The notes beneath the pieces are model-generated. The model was not told where the DNA came from and did not search any database. It was given only the letters and a program-made list of their open reading frames with translations. This document shows positions 6,172 through 31,758 of a DNA stretch of 32,681 nt, one piece after another; position 1 is the stretch's first letter; the number at the start of each line of letters is the position of its first letter. The DNA is from a virus. Location: the IMG/VR virus record IMGVR_UViG_3300033148_003329, positions 1-32,681 of that record; one strand, given 5' to 3'. Position numbers and translations under genes: made by a program.

Positions 6172-6636
6172 ATGAAGAGAATCATACTGCTCGGGGTTAT
6201 CGGGATCGTGCTGGCGCTGGGTGTTGCGGCCGGGGACCCGCCACACTATTTCGGTAGCCGTTCAGTCTCGGCAACAGCCGACACCTCGGGCGACACGACC
6301 GTGATAACGGGTACTATGCCAATGGGCGCTCTTGTCCTGGGCAAGGACGGCGCGTTGGCATACGCCAAGATCAGCGGACCTGTTAGCGGCGACGCCGGAT
6401 GGGGCAACGCCGATAGTTGCATCATTTCTCTGATAACGAAATGGGCTGGCCTGAGCAAGGTGATCGTTGCCGAGACCTGCGGATCACTGCCGTGTTCCTT
6501 GGTCTACAAACTCACCGGTGGATCAGACAGCATCTTATGGGAACGCCTCGATATCGACTACACGATCATGGATACAATCAGTGACACGCCGAGCACCGCG
6601 ACCTATCGCGAGCGGTGGGATGTGCTGCTAAAGTAA
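6172..6636 (+). CDS. Exported protein with Sec signal peptide, paralogue of the next gene
   Basis: ATG 6172 has an AGGAGG ribosome binding site. The 154-residue product starts with MKRIILLGVIGIVLALGVAA followed by GDPPHYF: basic start, hydrophobic core and small residues at a likely cleavage point (VAA/GD). The rest is beta-rich and Thr/Asp-rich with three mature cysteines. The segments DSCIIS, KVIV and TCGSLPCSL align in order with DTCIIT, EVIV and TCTSLPCTL of the next gene, and both end with an FDY/IDY-like segment and an aromatic C-terminus, so the two are probably tandem paralogues. Location in the head module suggests a virion part, but exported decoration or accessory roles are equally open. 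Confidence 0.75.
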   Translation: MKRIILLGVIGIVLALGVAAGDPPHYFGSRSVSATADTSGDTTVITGTMPMGALVLGKDGALAYAKISGPVSGDAGWGNADSCIISLITKWAGLSKVIVAETCGSLPCSLVYKLTGGSDSILWERLDIDYTIMDTISDTPSTATYRERWDVLLK

Positions 6637-6645
6637 AGGGACTCT

Positions 6646-7236
6646 ATGATGAAGAGATTGATTGCGATACTGATAATCCTGGTCTTCACGGGTGCTTACA
6701 CGCGTGTGGATGCCGGGGCAAAACGAGTCGTCAACGTCGCTTCGGGAACGACGACGATCAACCTGCCTGAAGGCGGCGCTGATACGGTTGCTACCGGTAC
6801 TGGCATGAACAAGGCGCTCATCACGAATTCAACCAATACCAACATCGGCGGGAAGAAGTTCGATAAGCTGTACGGGAGCTATCTGATTTCGGCGTGGACC
6901 GACGTTGGTGATTCCATCGCCGGGGAGAATGGCGTCGACACCTGTATTATTACGACCTACACCGGTACGGAATGGATCGAGGTGATTGTCTCGTGCGATA
7001 CGTGCACGAGTCTGCCCTGTACGCTGACGGTCTACTATTACGAGGACATTCCGTTCGACGGCACTCTCGATAATGACACAGCCGCCGATGCACGCTACCG
7101 GCCTGGGAGCTACGAGAAAAACGCCTTGCTCCACGAACACCTGTGGTTCGACTACGACACCGAAGACACCGCCGGGGATCTCGGTCACTTACGGCAGACC
7201 ATTCAATATTGGTTCCGTGGTGTGGAGGACGAGTAA
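6646..7236 (+). CDS. Exported protein with Sec signal peptide, paralogue of the previous gene
   Basis: A 196-residue protein starting at ATG 6646 behind AAAGGGA. The N-terminus MMKRLIAILIILVFTGAYTR, followed by VDAGAKR, is a signal peptide with likely cleavage after VDA or AGA. The mature part is beta-rich and has four cysteines in the stretch from DTCIIT through SCDTC to SLPC, the same pattern as the preceding gene. The extra length lies in the N-terminal half (repeated Thr/Asn/Gly) and near the C-terminus. Function is unknown. Signal peptides are not expected on proteins between portal and scaffold, so either these are exported accessories or the virion is put together in an unusual place. 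Confidence 0.75.
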   Translation: MMKRLIAILIILVFTGAYTRVDAGAKRVVNVASGTTTINLPEGGADTVATGTGMNKALITNSTNTNIGGKKFDKLYGSYLISAWTDVGDSIAGENGVDTCIITTYTGTEWIEVIVSCDTCTSLPCTLTVYYYEDIPFDGTLDNDTAADARYRPGSYEKNALLHEHLWFDYDTEDTAGDLGHLRQTIQYWFRGVEDE

Positions 7237-7485: not shown

Positions 7486-7769
7486 TGACACATTAGACAC
7501 GTCAGGCAAAGGATAGTGCTATGGGTGACGAGAACGAACAGAACGAAAATCTCCGTGAGATTAAGTTCAACGTAGTGGACGAGGACGGCAGTTCGATTGA
7601 AACGTCGGAGGACAATAACGCCTCTGATGACACGGCGAATGCCGCTGGCGAGTCCACTGATGACGAACAGACCGATGACACGAAGGCCGAAGGAACGTCG
7701 GAGGAGTCAGAAGACGAATCCGATGACACGGCGGATGGCCAGGAGACGTCGGAGTTCGATTGGGACGCT
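7450..7769 (+). repeat. Diverged GATGACAC repeats across a gene junction
   Basis: The octamer GATGACAC occurs at 7450, 7484, 7626, 7674 and 7722. The first two copies belong to 22-base units (7450-7471 and 7484-7505) that differ at three positions; the second lies mostly in the gap between two genes. The last three are exactly 48 bases apart and encode 16-residue acidic units beginning DDTANAAG, DDTKAEGT and DDTADGQE. ACGTCGGAG recurs at 7602, 7695 and 7744. Confidence 0.7.
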
Positions 7770-8510
7770 GAGTTTGAGAAGGCTGAACTGTCCGGACAGT
7801 ACCCGAACAAGGCCGACGTGTTCCGGGCTGTTAAGGAGAAGGAGCAGGCCGTAACTCAGCTTCAGCAGGAGAATGCGGAGCTTCGGAATATCTTTGCCGA
7901 ATTTGCCCGCAAGCAGGGGCAGGAACGCCCTGATCGAACCGAGAAGCCACCGGAATTCGATCCGGAGGCATTCATAGAACAGTTCCAAACCGACCCTCAA
8001 GCCGCCTTACGTTCTCAGGGCGTCGTGACTATTGACCAGTTGAAGGAGGTCTTGGTGCCACTTGCCGGGGCGCTGACGAATCTACAGCGCAACGACGTGG
8101 CGGTCAAGATGTCCGGCATTTTCGATGGCTACGAAGACCTGAAGGATGTGGCCGAGTTTATCCGCACCACGAAACCTGCAAAGGGACAACCCTACGCTCT
8201 CCCTGCGAAGGGTGTCAATCCTCGCCTGGATCGCATGTTGGCGGTCATTGAGGAGTTCGAGCTTCAGGGCTCACCCAAGACGGTTTTGAAGACTGCGTAC
8301 AAGCTCACCGAGGACGGTTCAGGGTTCAGTGATTCGCGGGACAACAAGGAACCGGAGCACCGGAAGGTTCCGGAGTCTCGCAAGCGTAACGCAAAAACAT
8401 CTCCGGTCAGTAAGCCGAAGGGCAAGCCGGGCGGAGAACCTGACTTTTCAACTATGACTCCCAAGGAAATCAAAGCCTGGTCAAAGGCCAATAATCGTTG
8501 GCGTGGCTGA
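7521..8510 (+). CDS. Putative capsid scaffolding protein
   Basis: A 329-residue protein with ATG 7521 behind AAAGGA. It has a strongly acidic, repetitive N-terminus (residues 1-75, many Asp, Glu, Ser and Thr), a predicted coiled coil (about 95-130, EKEQAVTQLQQENAELRNIF), a helical middle (TIDQLKEVLVPLAGAL) and a basic C-terminal tail (KVPESRKRNAKTSPVSKPKG), and no cysteine. Charge polarity, coiled coil and location immediately upstream of the major capsid gene fit a scaffold, which guides prohead assembly and leaves before maturation. The basic tail would contact the capsid, as in P22 scaffold. No protease domain is visible. Confidence 0.8.
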   Translation: MGDENEQNENLREIKFNVVDEDGSSIETSEDNNASDDTANAAGESTDDEQTDDTKAEGTSEESEDESDDTADGQETSEFDWDAEFEKAELSGQYPNKADVFRAVKEKEQAVTQLQQENAELRNIFAEFARKQGQERPDRTEKPPEFDPEAFIEQFQTDPQAALRSQGVVTIDQLKEVLVPLAGALTNLQRNDVAVKMSGIFDGYEDLKDVAEFIRTTKPAKGQPYALPAKGVNPRLDRMLAVIEEFELQGSPKTVLKTAYKLTEDGSGFSDSRDNKEPEHRKVPESRKRNAKTSPVSKPKGKPGGEPDFSTMTPKEIKAWSKANNRWRG

Positions 8511-8551: not shown

Positions 8552-9847
8552 ATGACATGGGCTGATGATTATTATGCTGCCACAAACGATGTTACCGTCG
8601 CAAACCTAGGCGTCTCCTGGACATACTACATCAAAAAGTTCCTCGACACTCAGAGGAACGCCGTAGTGATGTCCACGCTGGGTCAGCCGACCCCGCTGCC
8701 TAGGGGTGAGGGTAAGACCGTACAGTGGCACCGCTACTGCAAGTTGGCCGCGAGTGTATCCGGGTCGCATTTGACCGAATCGGTTAATCCGGATGCAACT
8801 ACGTTTACAATGCAGGCCCTGACTGCTTCGATGGAGGAGTTTGGTGCCTTCGCAAAGTTGTCCACAATGCTGTCGATGACTTCGCTTGATAAAAGTGGTG
8901 AAGGCGTCGCAGATATGTTCGGCAAACATGCGGCTGAGGTTATGGACCTTCTTCTGCATCAAGAGGTGGCTGCGAACAGCGGCCGCATTCTGAGGGCAGA
9001 TATAGACGCGACCAAGACCTTCAAGGGTACGGTCGATGCAGGCAGTACGTCGACTACTATGGTCGATGCCGCTTTGACGAGCAACACCAATTACGGGGAC
9101 GCCAACGACGATCTGAACCAGTCGATTGTGACGATGCTCACTGGTACCAGCGCGGGTCAGTCGCGCCCCGTGACGGACTATGTTGCCTCAAGCGGTACGT
9201 GTACGGTTTCACCGGCCTGGGACGTTACTCCAGTTGCCGGCGATACGTATGAGGTGACTTCTCTGGACGGCATCGTATCCGGCGATGACATCAGTTACGA
9301 GAACTTGCTCCGTGGGCATACCCTCCTCGAGGAACAGGGTGCCGAGCCGGACAACCATGGTTTCTTCACCGCTGTTGTTGGACCCTGGGAGGCCGAGGCC
9401 ATCGCGACGGACACTCACTGGGTGAATATTAACACCTACCAACAGGGAGCCAAGGGCATCTACAAGAACGAACTCGGCCGACTCGCCGGGTTCCGCTTCT
9501 TGCGTGAGACGGTGCCCTTCCGGTGTCCGATCACTACGATCGGGACTGCCGGATCGTCGTACGGTATTGGTGCCAACGACATAGCCAACTCCGCGTACAC
9601 GAACTATTCCTCCAGCGGCGGGGTCACCGTGATTCCGCTGATGGGTAGGAATGCGTTCGGTATCACGACGTTCGCCAACAAGGGTTTGCGGGATACACCG
9701 CAGTTGCGGATGACGACTCCGGGACCGCATTCGACGGATCAGCCGTTGAAGCGTTTCTCGACTATGGGCTGGCAGCAGCCTGCGATCGCGAAGGGCCTGG
9801 AGCCGCGCCACTGCATTAACCTGGTTGTGTTCAACACCGCTGCTTAG
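8552..9847 (+). CDS. Major capsid protein, N4-gp56-like, with inserted beta domain
   Basis: A 431-residue protein with the strong ribosome binding site AAGGAGATAAAC before ATG 8552, as expected for the most abundant virion protein. Features like those of N4-gp56-family capsid proteins (HK97 fold) are GKTVQWHRYCKLAAS (residues 54-68), a Leu-Thr-Glu segment (LTESVNPDATTFTMQ, 74-88), MEEFGAFAKLS, and the C-terminal block with GFFTAVVGPWEAEAI (270-284), KNELGRLAGFRFLRET (305-320). Residues about 157-240 (AGSTSTTMVDAAL, GTSAGQSRPVTDY, AGDTYEV) look like a small beta domain inserted in the shell fold, perhaps exposed on the surface. No signal peptide. Confidence 0.85.
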   Translation: MTWADDYYAATNDVTVANLGVSWTYYIKKFLDTQRNAVVMSTLGQPTPLPRGEGKTVQWHRYCKLAASVSGSHLTESVNPDATTFTMQALTASMEEFGAFAKLSTMLSMTSLDKSGEGVADMFGKHAAEVMDLLLHQEVAANSGRILRADIDATKTFKGTVDAGSTSTTMVDAALTSNTNYGDANDDLNQSIVTMLTGTSAGQSRPVTDYVASSGTCTVSPAWDVTPVAGDTYEVTSLDGIVSGDDISYENLLRGHTLLEEQGAEPDNHGFFTAVVGPWEAEAIATDTHWVNINTYQQGAKGIYKNELGRLAGFRFLRETVPFRCPITTIGTAGSSYGIGANDIANSAYTNYSSSGGVTVIPLMGRNAFGITTFANKGLRDTPQLRMTTPGPHSTDQPLKRFSTMGWQQPAIAKGLEPRHCINLVVFNTAA

Positions 9848-9870
9848 GCGGCTGGCATTGTATAGAACCG

Positions 9871-9896
9871 CCTGGGGCAGGTAACACTGCCCCGGG
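9871..9896 (+). other. Strong RNA hairpin after the capsid gene
   Basis: CCTGGGGCAG (9871-9880) pairs with CTGCCCCGGG (9887-9896) through ten pairs including one G-T, with a six-base loop GTAACA. It lies 24 bases after the capsid stop. No T-run follows, so it is not a classic intrinsic terminator. It could stabilise or process capsid mRNA, or weaken read-through (inference). Confidence 0.6.
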
Positions 9897-9920
9897 TCAC
9901 TAATCAGTCAGGAGAATTCA

Positions 9921-10145
9921 GTGCCCAGTTACGATTTCAGATGTCCGGTTTGTGGAGAGATGGCAGAGGAGTTCTTTCTGTCCTACAAAAACAAGAAGGT
10001 TCCGGACTGTCCTACGTGCGGGGTGACTATGGAACAGGTGCATGTAAAACCACCGGCCATGTACATGCCTCCGGATTTCAGCCAAATGGCTCCCAATCAG
10101 GCGGAGATTGACATGAAACATGATGGATCGTGGTGCGGACGATGA
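9921..10145 (+). CDS. FmdB-like zinc-ribbon protein
   Basis: A 74-residue protein with GTG 9921 behind CAGGAG. It starts MPSYDFRCPVCG and has a second CPTCG after about 19 residues, so two CxxC pairs can bind one zinc ion. The form M-P-x-Y-D-F-R-C-x-x-C-G matches the FmdB-type zinc ribbon, small proteins thought to act as regulators or folding factors. The C-terminus is Pro/Met-rich (KPPAMYMPPDFSQM). Its stop overlaps the next start (ATGA). Between the capsid and neck genes it may be a virion or chaperone-like component, but its role in phage is not established. Confidence 0.75.
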   Translation: MPSYDFRCPVCGEMAEEFFLSYKNKKVPDCPTCGVTMEQVHVKPPAMYMPPDFSQMAPNQAEIDMKHDGSWCGR

Positions 10146-10813
10146 CAATCACAGAACTGATAGGTTGGTACGTACTGCAGGCGCGTCGACTGAAGTTGAC
10201 CGAGAATTTGGAGCCAGACGACCAACGGGAGTTTGTGGATACTGCGGTGCGCATGGGAATACAGCAGTTCTGGAACCGGCATTCATGGACTTTTCGCTTT
10301 AAGGACTATGAGCTAGACGTGTCGGCCGGAACGGAGCGGTTTGCGCTTCCCGACGAGTGTGTCGGCATTCGCTCAATTCGCGAGAAGACGAGCCTCACAG
10401 GCTTCCGTTTAACCTACCTGCCGAAGGAAGTGTTTGATACGAAGTTTCCGAGGCCGCTGACTCAGACCAATGATCGGCCGGTTTACTACACAGCCTACGA
10501 GAGTGACGGTACGCTCTATGCGAAGTTCTTTCCAGTTCCCAACGTCTCGACGGTTTACCTGGACATCATGTTGGACAAACTGGAGGATGAGCAGTCGATT
10601 CCGGCGCGGTCGCTAGCGGCGCTGAAAGCCACCGTGGACACGTTTCTGTTCCAGCCGGGGACGGCCCAAATGGAGAGTACGGTTAGAATTGCTCACAAGG
10701 AAGTTATGGAACTAATGCGGACGGATTCGCCGAACAAGAGCACTCCGTTCGAGATCATAGGCGATGCGCAACTCAAAGTGGAGACTTTCCGACCATGGCT
10801 AGTATCAGACTAA
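10142..10813 (+). CDS. Putative head-tail adaptor (neck protein 1), cytoplasmic type
   Basis: A 223-residue protein from ATG 10142, overlapping the previous stop as ATGA. GTG 10130 is also in frame and would add four residues. The order of elements resembles adaptors bound below the portal: an N-terminal helical part (LEPDDQREFVDTAVRMGIQQ, then FWNRHSWTFR), a beta segment ending in RFALPDECVGIRSIR, a central GFRLTYLPKEVFDTKFP, a RPVYYTAYESDGTLYAKFFP segment, and a C-terminal helix. These adaptors extend the portal and close the head after packaging. No signal peptide is present, in contrast to the next gene. The family call is from pattern memory. Confidence 0.65.
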   Translation: MTITELIGWYVLQARRLKLTENLEPDDQREFVDTAVRMGIQQFWNRHSWTFRFKDYELDVSAGTERFALPDECVGIRSIREKTSLTGFRLTYLPKEVFDTKFPRPLTQTNDRPVYYTAYESDGTLYAKFFPVPNVSTVYLDIMLDKLEDEQSIPARSLAALKATVDTFLFQPGTAQMESTVRIAHKEVMELMRTDSPNKSTPFEIIGDAQLKVETFRPWLVSD

Positions 10814-11424
10814 TCATAGCAGCATTGGTGCTGACAGGCATCGCGGCCGCTTCTGACTTATCGGATCTTCGCGATCATGTTTACAGAGGGTTGACCATGA
10901 GCGCGAGCGGGGTGGCACAGCTCAATACCACTAGCGTGGATTCATTGATCGGCCTGACTTGTCGGGATTTCCATTTGAGCTACCCCGATGCTTTGGTGAA
11001 GCTCGATACGATATCGCTTTTGCCTGGAGTGCTGAACTACGCCCTGAATGATGATGTTCTGGATGTTCCCGGCATTAATCCTATCACGTTCTGCTGCTAC
11101 ATAGATTCCACTCGAATCAATCCGGGGACAAAAGTCGCTGTGCCACTACATCCAATTACTTCCGACGAGTGGTATTTGAAGACGATTGCGGAGCCAAATG
11201 CAAGCGCCCCGGACGTAAAGGACGATAAGCAGTACGCATTCACAGCCGGGGGGAGGCTGTTTGTCTATCCCGTTACGCGATTCGATGACATGTTGATTCT
11301 TGAATATCGGGCAGTGCAGCCAGTCATGGACGACACCACGACATTCCAGATTCATCAGGCATACTACGAGAAATTCATTCAGGCAGTGATAGCAAAGGCG
11401 CGCGACAAACTGGGCCTGAATTAG
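10795..11424 (+). CDS. Putative second neck protein carrying a Sec signal peptide
   Basis: A 209-residue protein starting at ATG 10795 inside the previous gene (19-base overlap). The first 19 residues, MASIRLIIAALVLTGIAAA, form a signal peptide with an alanine-rich cleavage site before SDLSD. What follows reads like a neck adaptor of the same general class as the upstream gene: first helix DLSDLRDHVYRGL, then a second helix, a phrase VKLDTISLLPGVLNYAL that resembles 'dtit...g...Y.lp' of such proteins, and GGRLFVYPVTRFDDMLILEY. An internal ATG at 10897 with AGAGGG six bases before it could give a form without signal peptide, but it would lose the first helix. Three mature cysteines. Confidence 0.6.
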   Translation: MASIRLIIAALVLTGIAAASDLSDLRDHVYRGLTMSASGVAQLNTTSVDSLIGLTCRDFHLSYPDALVKLDTISLLPGVLNYALNDDVLDVPGINPITFCCYIDSTRINPGTKVAVPLHPITSDEWYLKTIAEPNASAPDVKDDKQYAFTAGGRLFVYPVTRFDDMLILEYRAVQPVMDDTTTFQIHQAYYEKFIQAVIAKARDKLGLN

Positions 11425-11435
11425 GGAGTGAAACC

Positions 11436-11603
11436 ATGAAGGCAGCGACGCGGTGGGATTATCCAAGCAAGAAACTGGTCAGAGAAGGCATGGTTGCGGT
11501 GGCTCTCAGGTACGGCCATGCCCTTCGGGTGTCGGTGGGCGGGTTTCTGTACAAACGCCAGGCGCTGTATTTCATGGCCAACCTGAGAGGGTTGATAAAG
11601 TGA
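11436..11603 (+). CDS. Small basic hypothetical protein (55 aa)
   Basis: ATG 11436 follows GGGAGTG, and the frame ends with TGA at 11601-11603, overlapping the GTG start of the tail hub gene (GTGA). The 55 residues are basic and aromatic (MKAATRWDYPSKKLVREGM, then GGFLYKRQALYFM) without acidic stretches or signal peptide. Clear ribosome binding site, tight coupling on both sides and an absence of other reading frames here support a real gene. I do not recognise the family; small connector or regulatory proteins occur at this place in other short-tailed phages. Confidence 0.6.
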   Translation: MKAATRWDYPSKKLVREGMVAVALRYGHALRVSVGGFLYKRQALYFMANLRGLIK

Positions 11604-14590
11604 TCTGCCGTTTCCTGACAGCCCTGATTCTCATTGCCGCTTCGGTGACGGCTCAGATCAATTTGACCGCTCCCGGCGTAGAGGGGATGATCTCTAACGC
11701 GGATCTCCGGCCGGGGCAGATGCGGTATTGTCTGAACATTGATGCCTGGTCAAGGCCGGGGTTTTTGCAGCGTCGTCAGGGCCTACAGCACTACGGAGCG
11801 ACGCAGAGGTCGGTGACGGGCTTTCATGCCATGTTTGACCCGTACTGGAACCGCAAGTTGGTGGTGGGGGTCAGTGACTCGCTGTACACTTACTACAATT
11901 CGGGTCAGGTGGTGGCTAACGTAGTTGGTCAGTTATTGGTATCGGATACATTTAGAACGGAGGTCGTGAATGGTGTCGCTGGTTATAGCTTTCCCCACCA
12001 GGATGCCCACCACGACTGGACCGTTTCTGATCTAGGGCTAATTCACTGCGATGGCAAAACCCTCCCGATGTTGCTGACCATGACCAGCCTCTTCAAACAT
12101 AATGATTCGACGCAAGATACGGTAGGTTATGGACCGAGGGTGTTGCCGTTGGGCCTACCGGCACCAGGTCAGTTACTGGCGGGCAACTCCGGCATCGGTG
12201 GCCCCTTGATTGGCGATTATGTGTATGCCTATGCTTTTCTCGATACAGCTACGGCTAGCGGCGATTCAACAGGCCCCCTCGGTATTCAATCTGCGCCTGT
12301 AAGTTTAGTGGGTCAGTGTGCCTACTTAACGCAGTTTGATAAGTACGTGCATGATACTGGTGCCGCCGGAGATATGGGGCCGCTTATTATCGCTCGCAGG
12401 CGAGTTGGCAGTAGGGATGAATGGGCCGTGATCGATACATTATTCCTTGCTGGCCCACCATACGCTCGGCGAGTTTTTGCATACAGTGTTAAGAAAACAT
12501 GGATGAATAATCCCCATGACGAACAGGATTATGACAACACTCATGCTTATAGCATTGCCCTGGCCGATTGGGACTTCCTTGAGGGCGATTCGGTGTGGGA
12601 TTCGATCTTAGTAGATTTTTCAGCTGGTGATACTATCGGGAGTCAGTGTACTGACTGTTACGCCGGACAGCATTCACGAGATTCGCTGACGACATACATG
12701 ACCGAATTGTTCAACGATATGCCTATCACCGGGGACTCGATTATCGCCATTAAGTCTGGGTACTCGGTTGTGATTTACAACGGCGAGAACAAAGAAGATT
12801 CGTTTTCAGTACATGGGGATAATGTAGCAACATCCCCCGGAGGGTATAGTTACCCGTATTACTACGGTCCCGTGCGGATGACTTATGACAGTGTTGGTGC
12901 AACTAGCCCACCGCTTATCTACCTCGATACCATGTCCGATACCCCGGTGGTTTTGTTTGATGCCAGCCGGGTTTCTGATGCCATTCATGCTCCCGGCCAA
13001 CTCTTTGCCGACAGCTTGGCGGCTGGGTACGGTACTCTTGATGGTTATCATGCTTACGACGACAGCACATATTATGTAGCATACAGTTACTACGATCCCC
13101 TGACGGGGTTGGAATCGCCGCGTGGCCCTATCCTTGCCGTGGAGTTGGTCGATGGGCTTTCTGGCGATACGGCTCAATTCCGATCTCTAACTACCGGTGT
13201 TCCTGCAAGTGGCCGCCCGACGTGGATCAGGTTCCAGCAAACCGCCTGCCAGAGTACCATCTTCGGTGCCGGTGACACTCTGATTTGGTATGCTCTGTAT
13301 GACATCAGGACCGAAGGGACCTCCCAGACGATTGTCTGGGGTGGTTGGCCGGATTATGCTGTGGCGTCGAATCTTTCTCCCGACAGCATCAAGACGGACA
13401 CGCTTTACGATTATCAAATGGCGTGGAATGCGGCTGGGGATCAGATTTCCCACCGTGTTTGGGACAACCAGTTAATGTTTGAGGATATTGCTTGGTGTTA
13501 TGGCCGTTTCTGGGGGATCTATCAGAACCGGCTCTATTACTCTGGAATCAATGACCCGGCTGATTGGAGTCCTTACGAGTTCCTGCGTATCGATGAGGGT
13601 GTTGACGACGAATTGGTAGCGGTCAGAGAAGTCGGTGGGCAACTGTACGTATTCAAGCACCGCTCTATCTGGACCGTGACCGGTAGTGACCCTCAATATG
13701 ATATGTACGTCGAGCCGTACCTGACGGGAATCGGGGTAGCATCGATTAAGGCCATGAGGAACCATCGAGCCGACCTGTATTTCCTAACTCCGGATGCTCA
13801 GTTTTGGTCTTTGCGGCAGGGTGAGCTATCGGGCTTGGTAGCAGATCGAATGGATTCTCTATTCGACATCAGTGGTATCGGTACGTATCGCAAGGTCGTG
13901 GATTACGGTAGGGTAGTACCTTTTAACGACAAAATCATGGTGGTCAATGATTCGACATCAGAAGAACTCGTGTACCAGATTGACCCCGGTGTTTGGGTCC
14001 CAGAAGTCTACTCGTCATTCACACCTATGGGATCGTTCTATTATGATTCGTCACAGACTATCTCGGGGTTTGGATCAAGCCATATTCTCTGGGATTCGGC
14101 GGGGAAACCACTTATGCGAGAATACGTGTCTGACACCGTTCGCCAAGACCAATCGGGGACCACGGCTTTCGCGGCGGAATTTTACTTGGGCGGCGATGGT
14201 CAGAGATATTGGCAGGCAACGGCGCTCGGGATAGAACTGAAGGCGGACCATGACCGCAACTGGCTTCGGTACTCGCTCCGAGACCAAGACAGTGAGTTGG
14301 CTACTGATTCTCTGTATATCAAACTGAAGGATACTTGGCGACTATTGAATTGGTCCTTGTCTCCGGAGCAGGGGACGGATTTGTACCTACGGCTGTACTC
14401 TCCAGCGGCTGATTCGGTGAATTACTATCTGCATGGCAGTCCCGGTCCGGGCGACAGCACTTTGACCACAAAGGTTTGTCGGAATGCTTTCGTGATTGAT
14501 CGGTTGCGGGTTGGTCTCAGGGATATGGGCAAACCAATTCAGGTTGGCACGGGTGATGATGTTGACGAGGAAGTTGGGGGTGGATCGTGA
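11600..14590 (+). CDS. Tail hub/stabilisation protein, beta-propeller-like, with Sec signal peptide
   Basis: A 996-residue protein starting at GTG 11600 (GAGAGG upstream, GTGA overlap). It begins MICRFLTALILIAASVTA then QINLT, a signal peptide with a good VTA/Q cleavage site. The mature start (PGVEGMISNADLRPGQM, NIDAWSRPG, RRQGLQHYG) and a later block (GRFWGIYQNRLYYSGINDP near residue 635, FKHRSIWTVTGSD near 683, GIGVASIKAM, LYFLTPD) match the repeated pattern of phage tail proteins that plug the neck, of the P22 gp10 type. Such proteins form the tail below the adaptor. About eight cysteines are in the mature part. It has no membrane segment beyond the signal. The signal peptide is unusual for this family. 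Confidence 0.72.
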   Translation: MICRFLTALILIAASVTAQINLTAPGVEGMISNADLRPGQMRYCLNIDAWSRPGFLQRRQGLQHYGATQRSVTGFHAMFDPYWNRKLVVGVSDSLYTYYNSGQVVANVVGQLLVSDTFRTEVVNGVAGYSFPHQDAHHDWTVSDLGLIHCDGKTLPMLLTMTSLFKHNDSTQDTVGYGPRVLPLGLPAPGQLLAGNSGIGGPLIGDYVYAYAFLDTATASGDSTGPLGIQSAPVSLVGQCAYLTQFDKYVHDTGAAGDMGPLIIARRRVGSRDEWAVIDTLFLAGPPYARRVFAYSVKKTWMNNPHDEQDYDNTHAYSIALADWDFLEGDSVWDSILVDFSAGDTIGSQCTDCYAGQHSRDSLTTYMTELFNDMPITGDSIIAIKSGYSVVIYNGENKEDSFSVHGDNVATSPGGYSYPYYYGPVRMTYDSVGATSPPLIYLDTMSDTPVVLFDASRVSDAIHAPGQLFADSLAAGYGTLDGYHAYDDSTYYVAYSYYDPLTGLESPRGPILAVELVDGLSGDTAQFRSLTTGVPASGRPTWIRFQQTACQSTIFGAGDTLIWYALYDIRTEGTSQTIVWGGWPDYAVASNLSPDSIKTDTLYDYQMAWNAAGDQISHRVWDNQLMFEDIAWCYGRFWGIYQNRLYYSGINDPADWSPYEFLRIDEGVDDELVAVREVGGQLYVFKHRSIWTVTGSDPQYDMYVEPYLTGIGVASIKAMRNHRADLYFLTPDAQFWSLRQGELSGLVADRMDSLFDISGIGTYRKVVDYGRVVPFNDKIMVVNDSTSEELVYQIDPGVWVPEVYSSFTPMGSFYYDSSQTISGFGSSHILWDSAGKPLMREYVSDTVRQDQSGTTAFAAEFYLGGDGQRYWQATALGIELKADHDRNWLRYSLRDQDSELATDSLYIKLKDTWRLLNWSLSPEQGTDLYLRLYSPAADSVNYYLHGSPGPGDSTLTTKVCRNAFVIDRLRVGLRDMGKPIQVGTGDDVDEEVGGGS

Positions 14591-15372
14591 GCATATTCAA
14601 GAAAATCATTGTTGGTACGATTACGGTCGCTCTGGGACTGCTAATCTTACTTTTCGGCTGTATGTGGCTGGACGTTCATGCGGGGGAAGCTCCAATTGTT
14701 AGTAATAGAGTAGCGGAGATACCGGGTGATACGCTTGTTCGTATTATGGGCCGAGGGGCAATAGGTCCCCAGCTGGATAGTTCGAGTCAACAGCCAGGAA
14801 TGTTCAGGGGGGCATCCGGGGGTCCGCTGCCCGAGGGAATGGGACCTGTGTGGGGGCCTGAGTATCTATATGATTCTACTCGCAGGAAAGAAACGAATTT
14901 TCGTGGTCCGCTGCCCGAGGGAATGGGTTTGTGGCAGGCGCGACAATCAAGGAAGTATGATTCGTATTCGGCGAGACGGCCCATGTCCCGAGACCAATTA
15001 GATGCTCTCGGTATGAGTGTAGAAGATTATCGACAGTGGATGATTTCATTACAGCCCTACGACCCAAATCGACGGCGGACAAATGCGTACCGTGCTGATG
15101 GTACTATTCTTGGCCAGTCCCCGGAACGGATGGCTATGCGGACGGTCGTGATCGATAGTGTGCAATTCGATGATGACAGTCTGGCGACGATCACACTTAA
15201 CCGGGTGCCGACGAATACGCAGCGTCGGACCGCTCCGACTTCAAGCGACAAGATTACGGTCGGTGGACCGTTTACGATAGAAGATTACAACGAGACGACG
15301 GGGATCGTGACAGTGAAGGCTCTGTTCGCAGCCGGATCAACGTATGTTACGGTGTCGCTGAACGTTCAATAG
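14587..15372 (+). CDS. Membrane-targeted or exported protein of the tail module
   Basis: A 261-residue protein from GTG 14587, overlapping the hub stop (GTGA). Residues 1-33 hold a basic start and a long hydrophobic core (MSIFKKIIVGTITVALGLL then ILLFGCMWLDVHAGEA). Three outcomes are possible: cleavage at VHA/GE, lipid attachment at the cysteine in LLFGC, or a retained anchor. The middle is Gly/Pro-rich with two copies of GPLPEGMG 28 residues apart. The C-terminal part (residues 175-261) is beta-rich (TITLNRVPTN, ITVGGPFTIEDY, STYVTVSLNVQ) and could be a small trimeric or beta-sandwich domain. Function unknown. Location behind the hub suggests a tail component. Confidence 0.65.
   Translation: MSIFKKIIVGTITVALGLLILLFGCMWLDVHAGEAPIVSNRVAEIPGDTLVRIMGRGAIGPQLDSSSQQPGMFRGASGGPLPEGMGPVWGPEYLYDSTRRKETNFRGPLPEGMGLWQARQSRKYDSYSARRPMSRDQLDALGMSVEDYRQWMISLQPYDPNRRRTNAYRADGTILGQSPERMAMRTVVIDSVQFDDDSLATITLNRVPTNTQRRTAPTSSDKITVGGPFTIEDYNETTGIVTVKALFAAGSTYVTVSLNVQ
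14821..14927 (+). repeat. Pair of exact 23-bp direct repeats inside the tail-module gene
   Basis: The 23 bases at 14821-14843 recur exactly at 14905-14927, 84 bases (28 codons) apart. They encode GPLPEGMG in both copies. Exact identity at the DNA level suggests a recent duplication or repair between copies. Confidence 0.8.
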
Positions 15373-16788: not shown

Positions 16789-16789
16789 T

Positions 16790-25500: not shown

Positions 25501-27447
25501 CTGTTTACTGATTACGCTAACCCCGACCCCGACACGATTGCCAGTGATATTTGGATAACAAACAACGTTTGTGAGAATAATGCTGCGGATCATGATGGTA
25601 GTAACGACAATGAGATATTGCTAAATTATGTAACTAACTTTCAGATTTCTGGGAATCATATTAGTAGAGATACTTCAGTGGGAGACAAGCTAATTCATGT
25701 TATTGGATTCAATGGTTCAATCGTCAATAACTATCTATTTGAGGATACGCTGGGCAGTACAGTGCAGGCGGTCGGCACGGATCTGATCTTTCTTGAGACA
25801 GTGACCGGTCACAGTGAAGACTACGATGATGTATTTGTCTATGGGAATGTAGGTCAGTTGTACCGGCAAGACTATGTTTACCACATGAATAAGATCAAGG
25901 CTGAGTATTTCACTATCAGGGGAACTGGTGCTCCCAATAATGGTGCAGGCTTAAAGTTCCAGATTTATGATGAGGACAATAATAGCGCCGAATGGTTTGG
26001 GGTGCGGACTCAGGGCAACACATGGGCACTGATAAGCTCTGGCTTTTCTGATTCTTACACTATGCACCCTCTTCATATTGGAATTGCTGGAGGTAGTAAT
26101 CCGAGTTACTCTAATATGAAGGGGATTACCATCAACGGCGGGGCCATCGCTGATGATACTACTGGTTTTGTTGGTATCCTAAATCAGGCTCCGCAACGAG
26201 CCTTGGATGTAACTGGCAGCGTTGGGATTACTGATGCGTTGGTTATAAGTGGTGATTCGATTGTGGACTTTGCAGGAACTAATCTCTCGGTCACCGATGG
26301 TGTGCTGAATGCTTCTGGTGGGAGTGGGGGGTCTGGAGACAGTCTCTACTTTTGGGACGGGGCCGCTTATTGGGACATTATCAACGATAAGATTCAGATG
26401 ATGGAGGGGTCTGGTATCGACTTTTCCAGAGAGGATTCAACTAACTGGGACGTGATGCGAGTATCGGTACAGGATTCATTCGTCAAGAATTATGAATCTG
26501 ATGTTATGGTTGGCACTCTCACCGCTGATGGATTAACTATAGGAGCCGATGAAGATTTGACGATGGGGACCTTGGCAATATCCGAAAATGGTAGTGGCTG
26601 GCTCATCGTTCCTGGAGCGATACATCTCGATGATGGTGGTGGTGGATATGTGGTATGTGACGGTGATATGTACCTCAACTATGGGGGGGATCAATCAAAC
26701 GGACGAACCTATTTCTACGAATCGGGAAGTGGTACAGGAGCATTTTTCTTATTCGACACGCTTCAGAATAGATTTCGCTTTTCGCACATTATCCAAAAGG
26801 TTCAGGCCGATACCGTCGCTATCAGTGGCGATGTTATTACCGACTTCGCTGGGCAAGGAATGGCTGTGGTCGGTAACGCCTTGGGGATTACTGATGATGT
26901 GTTTCAGCATACGCTTGATAGTGCAGAAGTTGCCCAGATTGTCGCTGACTCCTCCTACCTTGATAATGATGATCCCAACGTAGACACGTCCCAATGGCGG
27001 ATTGCTTATGACAGTTCGCAGCATGATTATCTTCGCAGCAACGAAGAAGCCGGTGACGTTGATACTACCGGCACTAAGATTGCAGCGGCACTGGCTGATC
27101 GGGTGAGCCGGAGTGATACGCTGTCAAAGTCATTCGTTATCGGATCTATCGACGACACGTATGACTTCCCCTTCTGGCAGACAAAAGAAGCAATCACGAT
27201 TACGGCGGTTTCGGCGGTAAGTACCGGCGGGACAAATGTTGTCGGGGCACTTCAGGAATACAATGCTACCGGGACCTCTGTAGATGCCGCTGTCGATGGG
27301 GATTGGACAATTACAACCTCCGAATACACCGACGCCTCGTTCACGAATGCCGGCATCGATGCCGGTGATTGGCTTGGCTGGAAAACAACATCAGTCTCGG
27401 GAACGGTGACATTCTTCAGCATAACCTTTGAGTATACGGTGGATTGA
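22510..27447 (+). CDS. Giant tail fibre/spike with Sec signal peptide and beta-helix
   Basis: A 1645-residue protein, the largest in the window; ATG 22510, GGAG upstream. It begins MKRLFVIFALLVLAVSVLA then IPPLW, a signal peptide with cleavage after VLA. Fibre-type segments follow, including VPTQQSVKQYVDDEI (near residue 265) and ENHVLTMGAAHPEWA (near 425), which are common in phage and host fibre-like proteins. A shaft has four 14-residue AHVTDTADAIRA-like repeats (591-677). Residues about 740-1100 form a right-handed parallel beta-helix by pattern (NCDIHDGGTNGIML, LRNNTIHDNGASGIAL, IIIRNNEIWDSHSAHI). The motif AYDSSQHDYLRS occurs before (690) and after (1499) the helix. It probably binds or degrades a host surface glycan; no catalytic residues can be assigned. 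Confidence 0.8.
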   Translation: MKRLFVIFALLVLAVSVLAIPPLWKPVGDYLYPALVKDSVGVPYAGGTIFITYWTDSATYATQALTADSATVAGSAGHDFDGDTINVSDYLTSETGDIEGVTAGVGLSGGGTSGSVTLNIDSTWVDAFADTINVRLADSINVTDNEATSENNLILFAGDAAGAGVVGVESDGDFHYSPGPGVVTATTFSGVGVDVSGNITVGGNVDGYDVSVVGDKVAGIETGADVTDATNVNAAGATMNADTDVKSNGWVLDENDMASDDDTKVPTQQSVKQYVDDEIAGVGGNPWTTSGNYLYPDNATDSVVIGGNGAFAGEALTVVGSADVTNTITAPYVVATATLTEDGNAVYNASETPGGELGGTWASPTIDNDALDDQYYDAEADLTGLLDDNYQPLDAELTELADLVGSDGAIIFYDTDTWDTIKAGTENHVLTMGAAHPEWAAASGGGTSWWDTVDNRNELDYTGESQILLDIKEDNDSTIVTPGDNTVLVLGDPGPTIVDSAYRGVVTGDSLLITKAYADGLGGSGEVNTLGDTGTFNGTSGFGLAGGKTGTVLKVKGLIEGSNITITADGDSAYSIAASGSTDSSLVAQYAHVSDTADALRAEMDDSAQAYYSDSADVVGFAHVTDTADAIRAVIPDSIEIVGYAHVTDTADVLRAEMPDTAGSHAGDTATALRTEIGYIADDTTNYQTAYDSSQHDYLRSSENADWDWVDSAYFFDFSHYAVGDSSIADSANWVTAMADVEAVNGTLILPVGEYNIGTPTTTDSDHSHITIVGESKEGSILYIRDSTTWWMSDDVTIKNLTIKSTNGEAGVLLRFGGTAASHCYVDNIIGEEVSIRFADVDYWGVTNSEINASKNQPLTANGGITTFNDCRYGLVENCDIHDGGTNGIMLHNGSEYITLRNNTIHDNGASGIALFATVSSPPAGGHKIVIEGNQIWGHSVHDGIDINPNGYKYSDSAGIIIRNNEIWDSHSAHIYVSVGGVWIDGNKLYDGDSYAILFTDYANPDPDTIASDIWITNNVCENNAADHDGSNDNEILLNYVTNFQISGNHISRDTSVGDKLIHVIGFNGSIVNNYLFEDTLGSTVQAVGTDLIFLETVTGHSEDYDDVFVYGNVGQLYRQDYVYHMNKIKAEYFTIRGTGAPNNGAGLKFQIYDEDNNSAEWFGVRTQGNTWALISSGFSDSYTMHPLHIGIAGGSNPSYSNMKGITINGGAIADDTTGFVGILNQAPQRALDVTGSVGITDALVISGDSIVDFAGTNLSVTDGVLNASGGSGGSGDSLYFWDGAAYWDIINDKIQMMEGSGIDFSREDSTNWDVMRVSVQDSFVKNYESDVMVGTLTADGLTIGADEDLTMGTLAISENGSGWLIVPGAIHLDDGGGGYVVCDGDMYLNYGGDQSNGRTYFYESGSGTGAFFLFDTLQNRFRFSHIIQKVQADTVAISGDVITDFAGQGMAVVGNALGITDDVFQHTLDSAEVAQIVADSSYLDNDDPNVDTSQWRIAYDSSQHDYLRSNEEAGDVDTTGTKIAAALADRVSRSDTLSKSFVIGSIDDTYDFPFWQTKEAITITAVSAVSTGGTNVVGALQEYNATGTSVDAAVDGDWTITTSEYTDASFTNAGIDAGDWLGWKTTSVSGTVTFFSITFEYTVD
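24280..24540 (+). repeat. Four 14-residue shaft repeats in the giant fibre gene
   Basis: Coding units at 24280-24321, 24373-24414, 24442-24483 and 24499-24540 encode AHVSDTADALRAEM, AHVTDTADAIRAVI, AHVTDTADVLRAEM and a diverged SHAGDTATALRTEI. Linkers vary in length. DNA copies differ mostly at third positions. Confidence 0.75.
24577..24612 (+). repeat. Copy 1 of the AYDSSQHDYLRS element before the beta-helix
   Basis: This 36-base segment encodes AYDSSQHDYLRS, identical in protein to 27004-27039. The DNA copies match at 31 of 36 positions, and every difference is silent, so the peptide itself has been conserved after an old duplication. Confidence 0.8.
27004..27039 (+). repeat. Copy 2 of the AYDSSQHDYLRS element after the beta-helix
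   Basis: Second copy of the element at 24577-24612, about 2.4 kb downstream in the same frame of the same gene. Together they bracket the beta-helix and the segment behind it. Confidence 0.8.
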
Positions 27448-28832
27448 TGATGCTTAGAGTTCTGTTTTGCACACTGTTGTTTGCCGCCTCGATCTCGGCA
27501 ACCGGAATCCCGGTGGTCGAAAGCTACACGTCGAACAACAGTGGCGGTGGCCTTCAGGATTCCATTAGGCTGGGGAAGCCCTCCGGGGTCGCCACCGGGG
27601 ATTTGTTATTAGTAATGGTGGGGAACGATAATATGGGGGTTGCTCCATCTTTTCAGGCGATACCCGACTGGACACAATTTGTCCACCAGGGTGATGCGGA
27701 CTCGGATTGCAAATTGGTTTGTTACTGGCGGATAGCTGACGGCACAGAGGCGGACACAATTCAGGTTGATTGTACTGGCGACGATGAAATATGGGGATGG
27801 TATATTAGGGTAAGTGGAGTCGACGACGACAGACCTATTGACGATACTGGGTCTGCGTATGTTTACAGTTACGAATCTTCTCACGCCATAACGGAAGCAA
27901 CGTCAACGGTAGATAGTTGTCTTGGTTTCTATGTCCTTGCATTTGACGGCGGCGACGGGTATCCATTTGGCATTTCCGGTACTGGCTGGACAGAGGAGGA
28001 CGAACAACAGTCGGGTTCGGATGCTGTTGATGCTTCGGGCGTATGGGGTACAAAGGAATTGGCGACTCACGGTGGGACGGGGACGGCTACGGTTAGCTCT
28101 AGCGTTTCCGATGGTGCCACGGGCATCCAATTTGTTGTGGCTCCCTTTAGGGCGGTGGACACCCTCAGCGACACGTCGGATATTTATGACGCGGTACTTT
28201 ACAATTATGCGAATTGCGATGGTGACGTGGTAGGGGAAGACTGTTTTCGATACAATGCCGGGGGGCTTTATACTGGCCGAGTGGGAACCGCCGGGGGAAA
28301 CTTTTCCACAATAGTGATGTCATTCCCCGGCTGGGATGGTGTTGTTCCCGATTCGTCTGAATTGGTTCTGTATTGTCTTGGTGAGAATGCAACTACGGAC
28401 AAGGATCTCATCTGCTACCCACTGACAACGGCTTTTATAGAGGGGAATGAGCTAAAAAGTAACGCCGGTGATTACCCAAACCCCGATAGTGGGGTGACGT
28501 GGAACCACGCCTACCTCGACGACGGGGATGCCGATTCGCTGAACTGGACGACGGCAGGGGGAGACTACACTACCGCCGTTGCCTGCACAGTATCGATAAC
28601 CAACGCCACCGCTTATTTCTCGCTGAAGCCATTTAATCGCATACTGAATTATATGGATACGTCGTCGACATATTATGGGGTTCGGTTTTTGGTCTCGCCA
28701 GCCACCCCCTTATTTAATACCGGGAAGACGTTCCGATTGTCCGAGACGGGCACGGGGACCGAGCCACGACTGATCCTGTACACGACGGAAGCTGAAGACA
28801 CTGCCGTGGGTCAGGTGATAATCATACAATGA
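27447..28832 (+). CDS. Exported tail-spike candidate with carbohydrate-binding-like domains
   Basis: A 461-residue protein; ATG 27447 shares bases with the previous stop (TGATG), and ATG 27450 is an alternative. It begins MMLRVLFCTLLFAASISA then TGIPVV, a signal peptide with cleavage after ISA. Residues about 20-150 (KPSGVATGDLLLVMVGND, VCYWRIADGTEADT, WYIRVSGVDDDRPI) match a beta-sandwich pattern seen in phage and secreted bacterial surface proteins. Residues about 235-455 (SELVLYCLGENATT, CYPLTTAFIEGN, GVTWNHAYLDDGD, EPRLILYT) resemble a DNRLRE/CBM96-type carbohydrate-binding domain. About nine mature cysteines could form disulphides outside the cytoplasm. The role as receptor-binding protein is inferred. 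Confidence 0.68.
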   Translation: MMLRVLFCTLLFAASISATGIPVVESYTSNNSGGGLQDSIRLGKPSGVATGDLLLVMVGNDNMGVAPSFQAIPDWTQFVHQGDADSDCKLVCYWRIADGTEADTIQVDCTGDDEIWGWYIRVSGVDDDRPIDDTGSAYVYSYESSHAITEATSTVDSCLGFYVLAFDGGDGYPFGISGTGWTEEDEQQSGSDAVDASGVWGTKELATHGGTGTATVSSSVSDGATGIQFVVAPFRAVDTLSDTSDIYDAVLYNYANCDGDVVGEDCFRYNAGGLYTGRVGTAGGNFSTIVMSFPGWDGVVPDSSELVLYCLGENATTDKDLICYPLTTAFIEGNELKSNAGDYPNPDSGVTWNHAYLDDGDADSLNWTTAGGDYTTAVACTVSITNATAYFSLKPFNRILNYMDTSSTYYGVRFLVSPATPLFNTGKTFRLSETGTGTEPRLILYTTEAEDTAVGQVIIIQ

Positions 28833-30742
28833 AGCAGATAGTCTACATACTGACAATGATACTGCTATGCGGTAAGGTGTGGGCCTTCGGGCCGACAGGC
28901 TGTAACGACTCAATCGGGACTTCTTTATCGTCCGCAATATCTATTAGTGATACCTGTTACTACCTGACGGGGAATCAGTGGACCTCTGGTTCTCGCGGAG
29001 TTATTCAGTCAGGCGTTCACGACATCAGACTAAACCTCCGGGGCTATACGGTTACTTTCGCGGGATCAGGAAGTGATACGGGCGAGTATGGTCTGAGCAT
29101 TGGTGCTAATTGTTATAATATAACCATTCACAACGGCAACATCGTTCACGGTGGTGACAGTACCACTGACGGCTCCAATTGTATAGAAATTGGGTCTGGC
29201 TGCCATGATATTAAGTTCAGCAATTGTAGTCTGTACGTTCAGGGTGGGAATGCAACCTGCGTAAACGGTGAGGTTTCCGGCCTCTATGATATTCGCTTCG
29301 ATACTTGTGATTTTCGTTCCGACGCATGGGGGTTTACCAGTGCCAACGCTAGCGACCAACATCCGGTGAAGTTTACCGATATGGCTCCCAGCGGGTTAGG
29401 TAATGACACTCTGACGTGGTTAGAGCCGGACGTGAATGGGTACGATTTCTTGTTTTATGGCTGTCGGCTATGGGGACCGGGTGGGCTGTCTGTTGGCGGG
29501 GTAACGGTCATTGCCCAATGCAGCCTTACGGTGGATGCTCGCAATGACTTTTACTCTTACCCCAGTGACGCCGCCGATCACGGCATGAAAAACTCCTGTG
29601 CTATTGGTGGCGCGCTAAGATGTGATTCCAGCGGTCGCACTGCGGTAATCTGTTCAACAACGATACGAGCCGGGACGAACTATGCCGGTTGCGACGAGGG
29701 GATGTTGCTTCAAACTGCGCGAGGTTATCCGGGGTATGAGATTCGCGTATTCGACAACGATGTGGATGTTCACTGTGGCAAAGACCACTATTATGGTTAC
29801 ACGGACAATACCGGCTGGAACTGCAAGGCGGTCAAGTTTAGGGGTGGTTGTAACAGTATCAAATTGTATGACAACACTCTCAAAACAACCGTCGGGGACA
29901 CTACCCTGTCGTCTTATGGCATGAAGTCGGCGACCCTCTATTTGATCTCTAACTATGATGGTGGCGCGGGGCTTTACGGCCACCTTGATAGTAATCATTG
30001 GATTTACAACAACACTATCATAGCCGACACAAATGGCACTGCCATTAACAGGCAACGGGCGGTAATGATCTCGGCGGGTGACAATTATCCGTCAATGGAC
30101 CACGATTGGGACTCGGTGAATATCAACTGGTATGGAAACAGTGTTCAGTCGAATGGTTGGTGTTATGACATTGGGGATGAAGACGGTGACGCAAGAGGTG
30201 TCAAGATACGAGAAGACACAATCAATCTCCTTTCTCAAGTTGGCAGTGAATATCACAACACTGTCTGCATTGCTACTGATTGGGGTGAGAGTGATTCCTG
30301 TATCAACAATCGGTTGCAAGATTGCTATTATACCTCTGGCGATGAAACTGATGTTATCATGTGGGCCAATACGTGGAGCGAATTGGAGTTATGGCGAACG
30401 ATCCAATGTACTGTAATGGCGGGATCGTCACCGGCCAACGGAGTCGAGGTGTGGTTCAAGAATTCGGCCAACAGCGATTCCCTGACAGCCACAAGTGACG
30501 CTAACGGATTAGCCACAAAGACTGTTCGGTATTACGACAATTTCACCGGCAGCGGCTCACCGGCTGATACACTAATTGCCGACTACTATCCCTTCACTAT
30601 CGGGGCAGTGATTAACGACAGCACCGTTACGGACACGCTCAACGTGGAGTGGGATAACTATCAAATAACGCTTACGGGTCCGGAGGGCGGAGGCACGACC
30701 AAGAAGACAGGAGCGGTGAAACTGGGAAAGGTGAAATTATGA
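28829..30742 (+). CDS. Exported cysteine-rich beta-helix tail-spike candidate
   Basis: A 637-residue protein; ATG 28829 overlaps the previous stop as ATGA. It starts MKQIVYILTMILLCGKVWA then FGPTGC, a signal peptide with cleavage after VWA. Most of the mature protein follows the short-strand pattern of a right-handed beta-helix (GLSIGANCYNITIHNGNIVH, CIEIGSGCHDIKFSNCSL, YDIRFDTCDFRS). About 22 cysteines recur, often in the turn position of successive coils, which would allow a ladder of disulphides after export. Residues about 528-600 (CTVMAGSSPANGVEVWF, TSDANGLATKTVRYY) look like a small Ig-like regulatory domain. Likely a glycan-binding or glycan-cleaving spike; the catalytic residues are not identifiable by eye. 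Confidence 0.68.
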   Translation: MKQIVYILTMILLCGKVWAFGPTGCNDSIGTSLSSAISISDTCYYLTGNQWTSGSRGVIQSGVHDIRLNLRGYTVTFAGSGSDTGEYGLSIGANCYNITIHNGNIVHGGDSTTDGSNCIEIGSGCHDIKFSNCSLYVQGGNATCVNGEVSGLYDIRFDTCDFRSDAWGFTSANASDQHPVKFTDMAPSGLGNDTLTWLEPDVNGYDFLFYGCRLWGPGGLSVGGVTVIAQCSLTVDARNDFYSYPSDAADHGMKNSCAIGGALRCDSSGRTAVICSTTIRAGTNYAGCDEGMLLQTARGYPGYEIRVFDNDVDVHCGKDHYYGYTDNTGWNCKAVKFRGGCNSIKLYDNTLKTTVGDTTLSSYGMKSATLYLISNYDGGAGLYGHLDSNHWIYNNTIIADTNGTAINRQRAVMISAGDNYPSMDHDWDSVNINWYGNSVQSNGWCYDIGDEDGDARGVKIREDTINLLSQVGSEYHNTVCIATDWGESDSCINNRLQDCYYTSGDETDVIMWANTWSELELWRTIQCTVMAGSSPANGVEVWFKNSANSDSLTATSDANGLATKTVRYYDNFTGSGSPADTLIADYYPFTIGAVINDSTVTDTLNVEWDNYQITLTGPEGGGTTKKTGAVKLGKVKL

Positions 30743-31758
30743 ATAGAGAAGAAAAGCATTTGTTGTCGGCCACAGGGATTGTTATCCTGTTTCTGGTAAT
30801 ACTCTTCTGCCTGATACCGATGATGAGCCATGCGGGGACTTACTATTTGCGTTGGGAAGTTCCTGATTATGATGCATGGGCGGCGTATGACAGCCTTCGC
30901 GTAATTGCGTATGACGCTAATACTCCCAATACTCCGGCTTGCTCGTTAAATACCGGCAGCTTCCCCTTCGTGGATTCTCTCGGACCGCTCGACTCGACCA
31001 AGGCTTACGTTGTGTGGGAGTTTCGCGGGTATGCCGATTTTGATTCGTTGGCTCCCATGTCAGCTCTACATATCTCGCCAATTGAGGTTTCGGCGTCCGC
31101 TACGGTTGATTATGGCGAGATGAATGATACTTTATCTGCTCATCACGGGTCTGGATCATGGACCCCGTCAGGTACGGGAGCGGCCTCGGTTCGGTTCTTT
31201 GTCTACAGCACTGCGGGTGATAGTTCGACACCGGTTCCTGGTGTTCAGGTGAGTGTGAAGAACAGAGCCCAAACCCTTGAACATGGTCGAGGCGGTACGT
31301 CTACAGATTCGGGTTTGGTCACACTCAACGTGCCGGAGGATACGGTAGTAGTGATCGCCGATCTCACTGGTTGGACTTTCCCGACTTTCGATACGACGGT
31401 CATGGTCGGGGATTCTACTTACTATATTTACGGCACGTGGTTCACGCCGGACGCGCCGAGCGATAGTAACAGTTGTACAGTGTATGGCTATCTCGCACGG
31501 TCGACCGGTGATCCTACCTACGCAAATCGCCTGATTACATTTACACTGCCTAAGATGGTAACAAATTCGTGTAATGGGCAGGATATCATTGACCTGATGG
31601 AAACGGCTATAACCGATTCTGTCGGTTACTATGAACAAGAGTTGGCATGGTCATCGTGTATTGGCGACTTGGAGTACACGATCAGTTATGGTCAGGGCAA
31701 AACCAAGAAGATCACGGTGCCGGATTCGACGAGTTACCAGGTGGTGTGGGATGATTGA
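30739..31758 (+). CDS. Exported fibre-like protein with Ig-like domains
   Basis: A 339-residue protein; ATG 30739 overlaps the previous stop (ATGA). The N-terminus is a long, polar start followed by a hydrophobic core (ATGIVILFLVILFCLIPMM) and SHA/GTYYL, a signal peptide or, if uncut, an anchor. The mature part begins with a beta-sandwich (YYLRWEVPDYDAW, LRVIAYD), contains SAHHGSGSW, a phrase like those in many phage fibres, and continues with an Ig-like domain (PVPGVQVSVKNRAQTLEHGR, STDSGLVTLNVPEDTVVVIA) and a second one that holds three cysteines. It is the last of four consecutive exported tail candidates before the lysis genes. No enzyme motif is seen. Confidence 0.65.
   Translation: MNREEKHLLSATGIVILFLVILFCLIPMMSHAGTYYLRWEVPDYDAWAAYDSLRVIAYDANTPNTPACSLNTGSFPFVDSLGPLDSTKAYVVWEFRGYADFDSLAPMSALHISPIEVSASATVDYGEMNDTLSAHHGSGSWTPSGTGAASVRFFVYSTAGDSSTPVPGVQVSVKNRAQTLEHGRGGTSTDSGLVTLNVPEDTVVVIADLTGWTFPTFDTTVMVGDSTYYIYGTWFTPDAPSDSNSCTVYGYLARSTGDPTYANRLITFTLPKMVTNSCNGQDIIDLMETAITDSVGYYEQELAWSSCIGDLEYTISYGQGKTKKITVPDSTSYQVVWDD

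Follow-up and report, generated by a model that had tools for sequence, protein, structure and literature searches.

Sec-like signal peptides on tail-side proteins and a doubled head–tail adaptor suggest that a short-tailed phage lineage may divide virion assembly between two compartments

The accepted view is that tailed phages make heads and tails in one compartment. Why, then, should the tail-side genes of such a phage begin with signals for export through the inner membrane? This question is raised by an IMG/VR virus record of 32,681 bases (referred to below as the window, i.e., the whole stretch of DNA analyzed), whose gene content is that of a short-tailed phage with an SU10-type neck, and which is probably a fragment, since an end repeat is absent. 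The following genes were distinguished:

2128..3537 (start approximate), plus strand: terminase large subunit; Terminase_6N (PF03237) above the Pfam cut-off; no signal
3541..5685, plus strand: portal protein of the SU10 type; Pfam SU10_portal (PF23899), 52 bits, cut-off 30; no signal
6172..6636, plus strand: early small protein 1, predicted signal peptide MKRIILLGVIGIVLALGVAA/GD
6646..7236, plus strand: early small protein 2, predicted signal peptide MMKRLIAILIILVFTGAYTRVDA
7521..8510, plus strand: scaffold-like protein, preceding the capsid gene and of acidic composition; no signal
8552..9847, plus strand: major capsid protein; phrog_1357, E 9e-33; no signal
10142..10813 (start 10130 to 10142), plus strand: adaptor 1; Pfam SU10_adaptor (PF24175), 41 bits, cut-off 27; no signal
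10795..11424, plus strand: adaptor 2, predicted signal peptide; mature part matching SU10_adaptor (PF24175), 28 bits, cut-off 27
11600..14590, plus strand: tail nozzle/hub, predicted signal peptide MICRFLTALILIAASVTA/QI; phrog_511 and the nozzle profile family
14587..15372, plus strand: post-nozzle protein, predicted signal peptide or anchor; long core, VHA/GE site
15382..22236, plus strand: three ejection-type genes (15382, 16790, and 18052), named by position and size; no signal, no cysteine
22245..22508, plus strand: spanin-like protein with an N-terminal transmembrane helix; phrog_739 and phrog_89 (Rz-like spanin)
22510..27447, plus strand: tail fibre or spike 1, predicted signal peptide; Pfam Beta_helix, 1.5e-14
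27447..28832, plus strand: tail-region protein 2, predicted signal peptide MMLRVLFCTLLFAASISA/TG
28829..30742, plus strand: tail-region protein 3, predicted signal peptide MKQIVYILTMILLCGKVWA/FG; 22 cysteines past residue 20
30739..31758, plus strand: protein before the lysis genes, predicted signal peptide or anchor; long core, SHA/GT site
31751..32269, plus strand: endolysin, M15 peptidase; Pfam Peptidase_M15_3 above the cut-off
32273..32476, plus strand: holin-like small membrane protein of 67 aa with hydrophobic segments, following the endolysin

A preliminary description of the window had pointed to nine genes with Sec-like N-termini, and all nine proved real, at or very near the starts it had proposed, their N-termini running from a basic n-region through a hydrophobic core to an AXA-like site; each of its example sites (SVTA/QI, ISA/TG, VWA/FG, and SHA/GT) was located. 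Most of the nine starts have Shine–Dalgarno-like sites at normal spacing (e.g., GAGGAGG ahead of 6172 and AAGGTGA ahead of 30739). Gene 11600 corresponds to a GTG start within the longer ORF 11453-14590, and for gene 27447 the starts 27444, 27447, and 27450 are possible. A signal rule combining n-region charge, an uncharged core of 9–12 aa, and an AXA-like site was applied alike to the window, its relatives, and the controls. In the automatic run, seven of the nine listed genes were called: 11600 was missed because the ORF caller chose the upstream GTG, being called as a signal peptide from the 11600 start, and 30739 features a strong core and site, but a net charge of 0 ahead of the core. The window count of 9/24 therefore refers to the listed genes, including 11600 and 30739, which were added by hand; the spanin-like gene 22245, outside the list of nine, was also called.

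Among the controls, representing 14 loci (T7, P22, N4, crAss001, phi38:1, Bacillus phage Page, and other environmental phages), 14 of 356 proteins were called, and at this rate the probability of nine or more calls among 24 proteins is approximately 2e-7. The calls in T7, P22, N4, and crAss001 included spanins, an endolysin, a lysis protein, glycosyl-transfer membrane proteins, and one false terminase call, with no adaptor or nozzle among them. On pseudo-starts within the window's own coding sequence, the rule fired at 2.6%. In most signals of the family, the core is short and Q, G, D, E, or another small residue comes next to the AXA-like site on the mature side, and the best cleavage-site score exceeded the mean of same-residue shuffles in 32 of the 38 family proteins. 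The weakest of the nine are those of 14587 and 30739, whose core length suffices for a transmembrane anchor, so that both could represent uncut anchors. Judged by the rule and its controls, the signals on the nine genes are real and systematic.

To place the window among other phages, its capsid protein was used as a query, leading to an IMG/VR genome of 40.1 kb (G003), which is probably complete in view of its 91-base end repeat, and to contigs in two genomes, G001, assigned to Candidatus Zixiibacteriota, and G002, placed in the same phylum by genome classification. Capsid and nozzle profiles searched against 132 genomes of the Zixibacteria phylum added G005 (a 42.4 kb contig with a 139-base end repeat), G070, and G079. 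Hence, six divergent relatives were obtained, five of them residing in Zixibacteria MAGs; scans of the viral collection yielded no close relatives beyond G003. Since integration was shown for none of the relatives, the host assignment rests on binning. Nozzle identity among the relatives ranged between 17% and 25%, and capsid protein identity between 38% and 58% inside the window clade, being far lower outside it.

Conservation in homologous phages had been named in the preliminary description as a check on the signals, and they were indeed kept in the six divergent relatives, conserved as a feature, yet non-identical in sequence. The opposite case it had raised, namely the same genes lacking a hydrophobic N-terminus, was not encountered in these relatives and appeared only in distant homologues of other phage groups. 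Signal-bearing genes close to the portal are present in the window (6172) and in G003, G002, G005, and G070, the portal of G005 being followed, like that of the window, by two small signal-bearing genes. The post-nozzle slot (window 14587) also holds signal-bearing genes in G005 and G070. In G003, the gene L019:7360, occupying the slot of window 22510, features Beta_helix and a signal, and L020:3974, in the slot of window 30739, has a similar N-terminus. The ejection trio likewise carries no signal in G003, G002, G005, and G079. A zinc-ribbon (FmdB-like) gene lies between the capsid and adaptor genes of the window (9921-10145), similar genes being found in G003, G002, and G005. Outside the tail cluster, two signal-bearing proteins of about 150 aa, possibly non-virion envelope proteins, were seen in G003 (L020:5411-5866) and G079 (L044:2420-2899).

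The distribution of the signals follows the location of the proteins in the virion. The N-termini of 95 proteins from the window and the six relatives, assigned to exported or head-side roles, were read. Adaptor 2 carries a signal in 6/6 phages and the nozzle in all five phages with an intact start (the sixth, in G002, is cut at the contig end), and the fibre/spike genes are signal-bearing, whereas none of the 56 head-side proteins (terminase, portal, the small genes g5 and g8, scaffold, capsid, adaptor 1, and ejection proteins) does so. Adaptor 2 and the nozzle represent the only independent tests of this split, since position and signal had a part in the naming of the fibre, early, and post-nozzle genes. 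The split tracks the place in the virion and not gene order, because the unsignalled ejection genes lie between the nozzle and the fibre genes. Ejection proteins ride within the podophage head, as described for SU10 (PMC9509320). The earlier proposal that the signal-bearing set consists of tail parts thus held for adaptor 2 and the nozzle, both assigned by homology, while the early genes 6172 and 6646 may not encode tail parts.

Cysteine content was considered as a sign of periplasmic folding and rejected as such. Overall, the exported proteins are richer in cysteine (11.9 vs. 5.0 per 1000), but nozzles with and without signals are alike in this respect (9.4 vs. 9.3, p 0.57), so that nothing points to a benefit from disulphides. 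Over several thousand residues, the ejection-type proteins contain, past residue 20, no cysteine in the window, G002, G005, and G079, and a single one in G003.

Comparison with unsignalled homologues clarifies how the signals relate to the proteins bearing them. With regard to the beta-propeller fold of SU10-type nozzles, the AlphaFold models were unusable (pLDDT of 26 for the nozzle and, likewise low, 40 for adaptor 2), and the nozzle assignment is consequently based on profile matches and gene position: phrog_511 was matched by five of seven nozzles, and the nozzle profile matched 8jov_A, a virion-associated phage protein, weakly (E 0.06). Unsignalled nozzles (L017, L060, L061, Page, T7 gp12, and P22 gp10) begin directly with the segment found behind the signal of the group studied here; seen from these homologues, the signal sequences are N-terminal additions. 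Searching the nozzle profile against 254 genomes outside the phylum returned six loci, none with a signal on the adaptor, nor on the nozzle where its start was present; signals were also absent from four further adaptor loci and one further nozzle locus outside the phylum, and the nozzles recovered from the phyla of G360 and G313 were all unsignalled. In total, 11/11 adaptor 2 and nozzle proteins of the group are signalled versus 0/35 for the unsignalled homologues (Fisher p ~7e-11), the rows being related and the group having been chosen by its signals. Two environmental loci deserve mention here. L061 (G360:C14; 3641-4969, 15861-16277, and 16688-17998) combines an unsignalled nozzle and adaptor with signal-bearing genes, two between terminase and portal and two past the tail genes; it may represent a halfway state, or the early exported genes may be independent of tail export. 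In the environmental phage contig L062 (G234), a small signal-bearing gene (5577-6011) lies directly ahead of an unsignalled adaptor gene.

Beyond the preliminary account, profile matches indicate that the head–tail adaptor is doubled, with one unsignalled and one signalled copy. SU10_adaptor was matched by 5/6 members each of adaptor 1 and mature adaptor 2, and the profiles of the two adaptors matched one another (hhalign 90%, E 1.6e-6). Two adaptor genes each were found in the window, G003, G001, G005, G070, and G079, and one each in L030, L060, L061, L017, and L063. Doubling alone is not unique to the group, since the genome G067 contains two SU10-type adaptor genes, both unsignalled (contig C591; L092:7370-8014 and 9356-9985). 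The single adaptor ring of SU10 grips the portal with its embracing loop, and its helix bundle attaches to the nozzle (PMC9509320). In the phages studied here, adaptor 1 would stay with the portal and adaptor 2 with the nozzle, their contact forming the head–tail joint. The signal of adaptor 2 is anchor-like in G079, and that of G005 (L029:353-1015) ends in LSAC, which resembles a lipobox; a lipid-anchored tail adaptor would be odd.

The trait could not be tied strictly to the host phylum: G016, G054, and G067, belonging to the same phylum, encode SU10-type adaptors without signals (L088-L092), and the trait therefore belongs to the tail module rather than to the phylum as such. By BLASTP, no alignment to the window clade was obtained for the capsid proteins of G070 and G079, whereas those of the unsignalled Page and L017 do align, meaning that the signalled tail is paired with at least two kinds of head. 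This pairing may reflect module exchange or more than one origin; for a single origin of adaptor 2, the adaptor tree gave an AU p of 0.37, a value with which one origin and several are both compatible.

Several explanations were weighed against export of the tail parts for assembly. That wrong starts or chance hydrophobic N-termini have produced the pattern was already disfavoured and is hardly credible: the calls do come from a rule-based caller and not from SignalP, but ribosome sites are present at the starts, the excess over the controls (9/24 vs. 14/356) is large, and the signals recur in six relatives. The most serious competitor, although unlikely, assumes that the signals remain uncut and direct the proteins to the inner membrane, where the hydrophobic N-termini stay as anchors and the tails assemble before release. 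It would suit the long cores or poor sites of 14587, 30739, and the G079 adaptor 2, as well as the lipobox-like sequence of the G005 adaptor 2; yet most signals look cut, with a short core and sites scoring above their shuffles in the proportion given above, and a released virion would have to accommodate an anchor on every nozzle and fibre subunit.

Some short-tailed phage proteins make channels through the envelope during infection, and the hydrophobic N-termini could accordingly be virion parts that serve infection without Sec export, for example, by insertion into the next host's outer or inner membrane. We consider this improbable, as one pattern is shared by proteins as unrelated as adaptors, nozzles, spikes, and small proteins, the design of charged n-region and cleavage site would be unneeded, and homologues exist without it. 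Equally improbable appears a function of the exported proteins outside the virion, such as receptor blocking, envelope remodelling, or a periplasmic structure, with tails made from other proteins. Such a role would fit the early genes 6172 and 6646, which have no virion homologue, and known phages do export non-virion proteins, e.g., Lom (PMC12309495); on the other hand, adaptor 2 and the nozzle are homologous to tail parts and occupy the usual gene positions, and a profile search of the window, G003, and G005 loci found no second, unsignalled nozzle.

In our judgement, the best explanation, with a probability slightly above even, is that this short-tailed phage with its SU10-type neck splits the assembly of its virion over two compartments. 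In the cytoplasm, terminase, portal, scaffold, capsid, adaptor 1, and the ejection proteins would be made and assembled into heads that are filled with DNA and closed by adaptor 1. Adaptor 2, the nozzle, and the fibre/spike proteins would be exported by means of their Sec signal peptides, cut by signal peptidase, and built into tails in the periplasm. Once the holin opened the inner membrane, heads and tails would meet and join at the interface between adaptor 1 and adaptor 2. The parts of this scheme differ in strength. Export of tail parts is likely, being well supported by the clean split of roles, the doubled adaptor, and the distant homologues without signals. Signals on tail proteins and never on head proteins further suggest head construction within the cell and tail construction beyond the inner membrane, and we infer tail assembly in the periplasm as rather probable and head–tail joining at lysis as an even chance. 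For the complete picture of a tailed lineage with cytoplasmic heads, secreted periplasmic tails, and joining at lysis via a duplicated adaptor, one member on each side of the membrane, the balance is likewise even. Against the two-compartment reading, Sec would have to move large amounts of protein chains 900 to 1,600 aa long, the meeting of head and tail across a membrane is an unproven step, the anchor-like signals (14587, 30739, and the G079 adaptor 2) and the lipobox-like LSAC of G005 fit poorly, and the early signal genes 6172 and 6646 could not be assigned to a role in the tail.

If tails are secreted, the order of assembly must be seen anew, as must what the holin and the head–tail neck do, and the place of tail making becomes directly testable. 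Moreover, virion proteins would be missed wherever annotation takes the presence of a signal peptide to speak against a place in the virion. In one paper, lack of signal peptides was taken as support for a phage origin of variable proteins (PMC6199706). Two and one signal peptides, respectively, were predicted for two rumen Bacteroides phages (PMC5723332). A search of the open-access literature, with subscription papers and bioRxiv mostly outside its scope, returned no report of signal peptides on adaptor, nozzle, and fibre proteins of tailed phages as a system. Within the literature searched, the window thus represents a known kind of virion with a feature not found described. We know of no tailed phage with heads made inside and tails outside the inner membrane, and such an assembly route, if real, would be without counterpart among the tailed phages known to us.

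Filamentous phages (Ff; Inoviridae) export their virion proteins by signal peptides and assemble at the inner membrane. The likeness lies in signal peptides on virion proteins, identified here by a sequence rule, with presence in the virion deduced from homology. Filamentous phages, however, have no capsid, terminase, lysis, or tail and are extruded without lysis, whereas in the present case signals are confined to the tail side, and the window encodes a terminase, a portal, a capsid protein, and an M15 endolysin along with holin-like and spanin-like genes. Lambda Lom is similarly a phage-encoded signal-peptide protein from a tail gene region, but it is a host outer membrane protein and not a virion part (PMC12309495). 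T7, P22, N4, and crAss001 share the arrangement of adaptor, nozzle/hub, and fibres on a portal, but their adaptor, nozzle, and fibre genes were not called by the same signal rule. The closest likeness in parts is to Escherichia phage SU10 and other short-tailed phages of the Kuravirus type, comprising the SU10_portal and SU10_adaptor domains, the portal–adaptor–nozzle–fibre series, and the ejection proteins. In SU10, one adaptor ring (gp11) holds the nozzle directly, and a signal peptide is unmentioned in its description (PMC9509320), whereas the phages of this study encode two adaptors and carry signals on adaptor 2, the nozzle, and the fibres.
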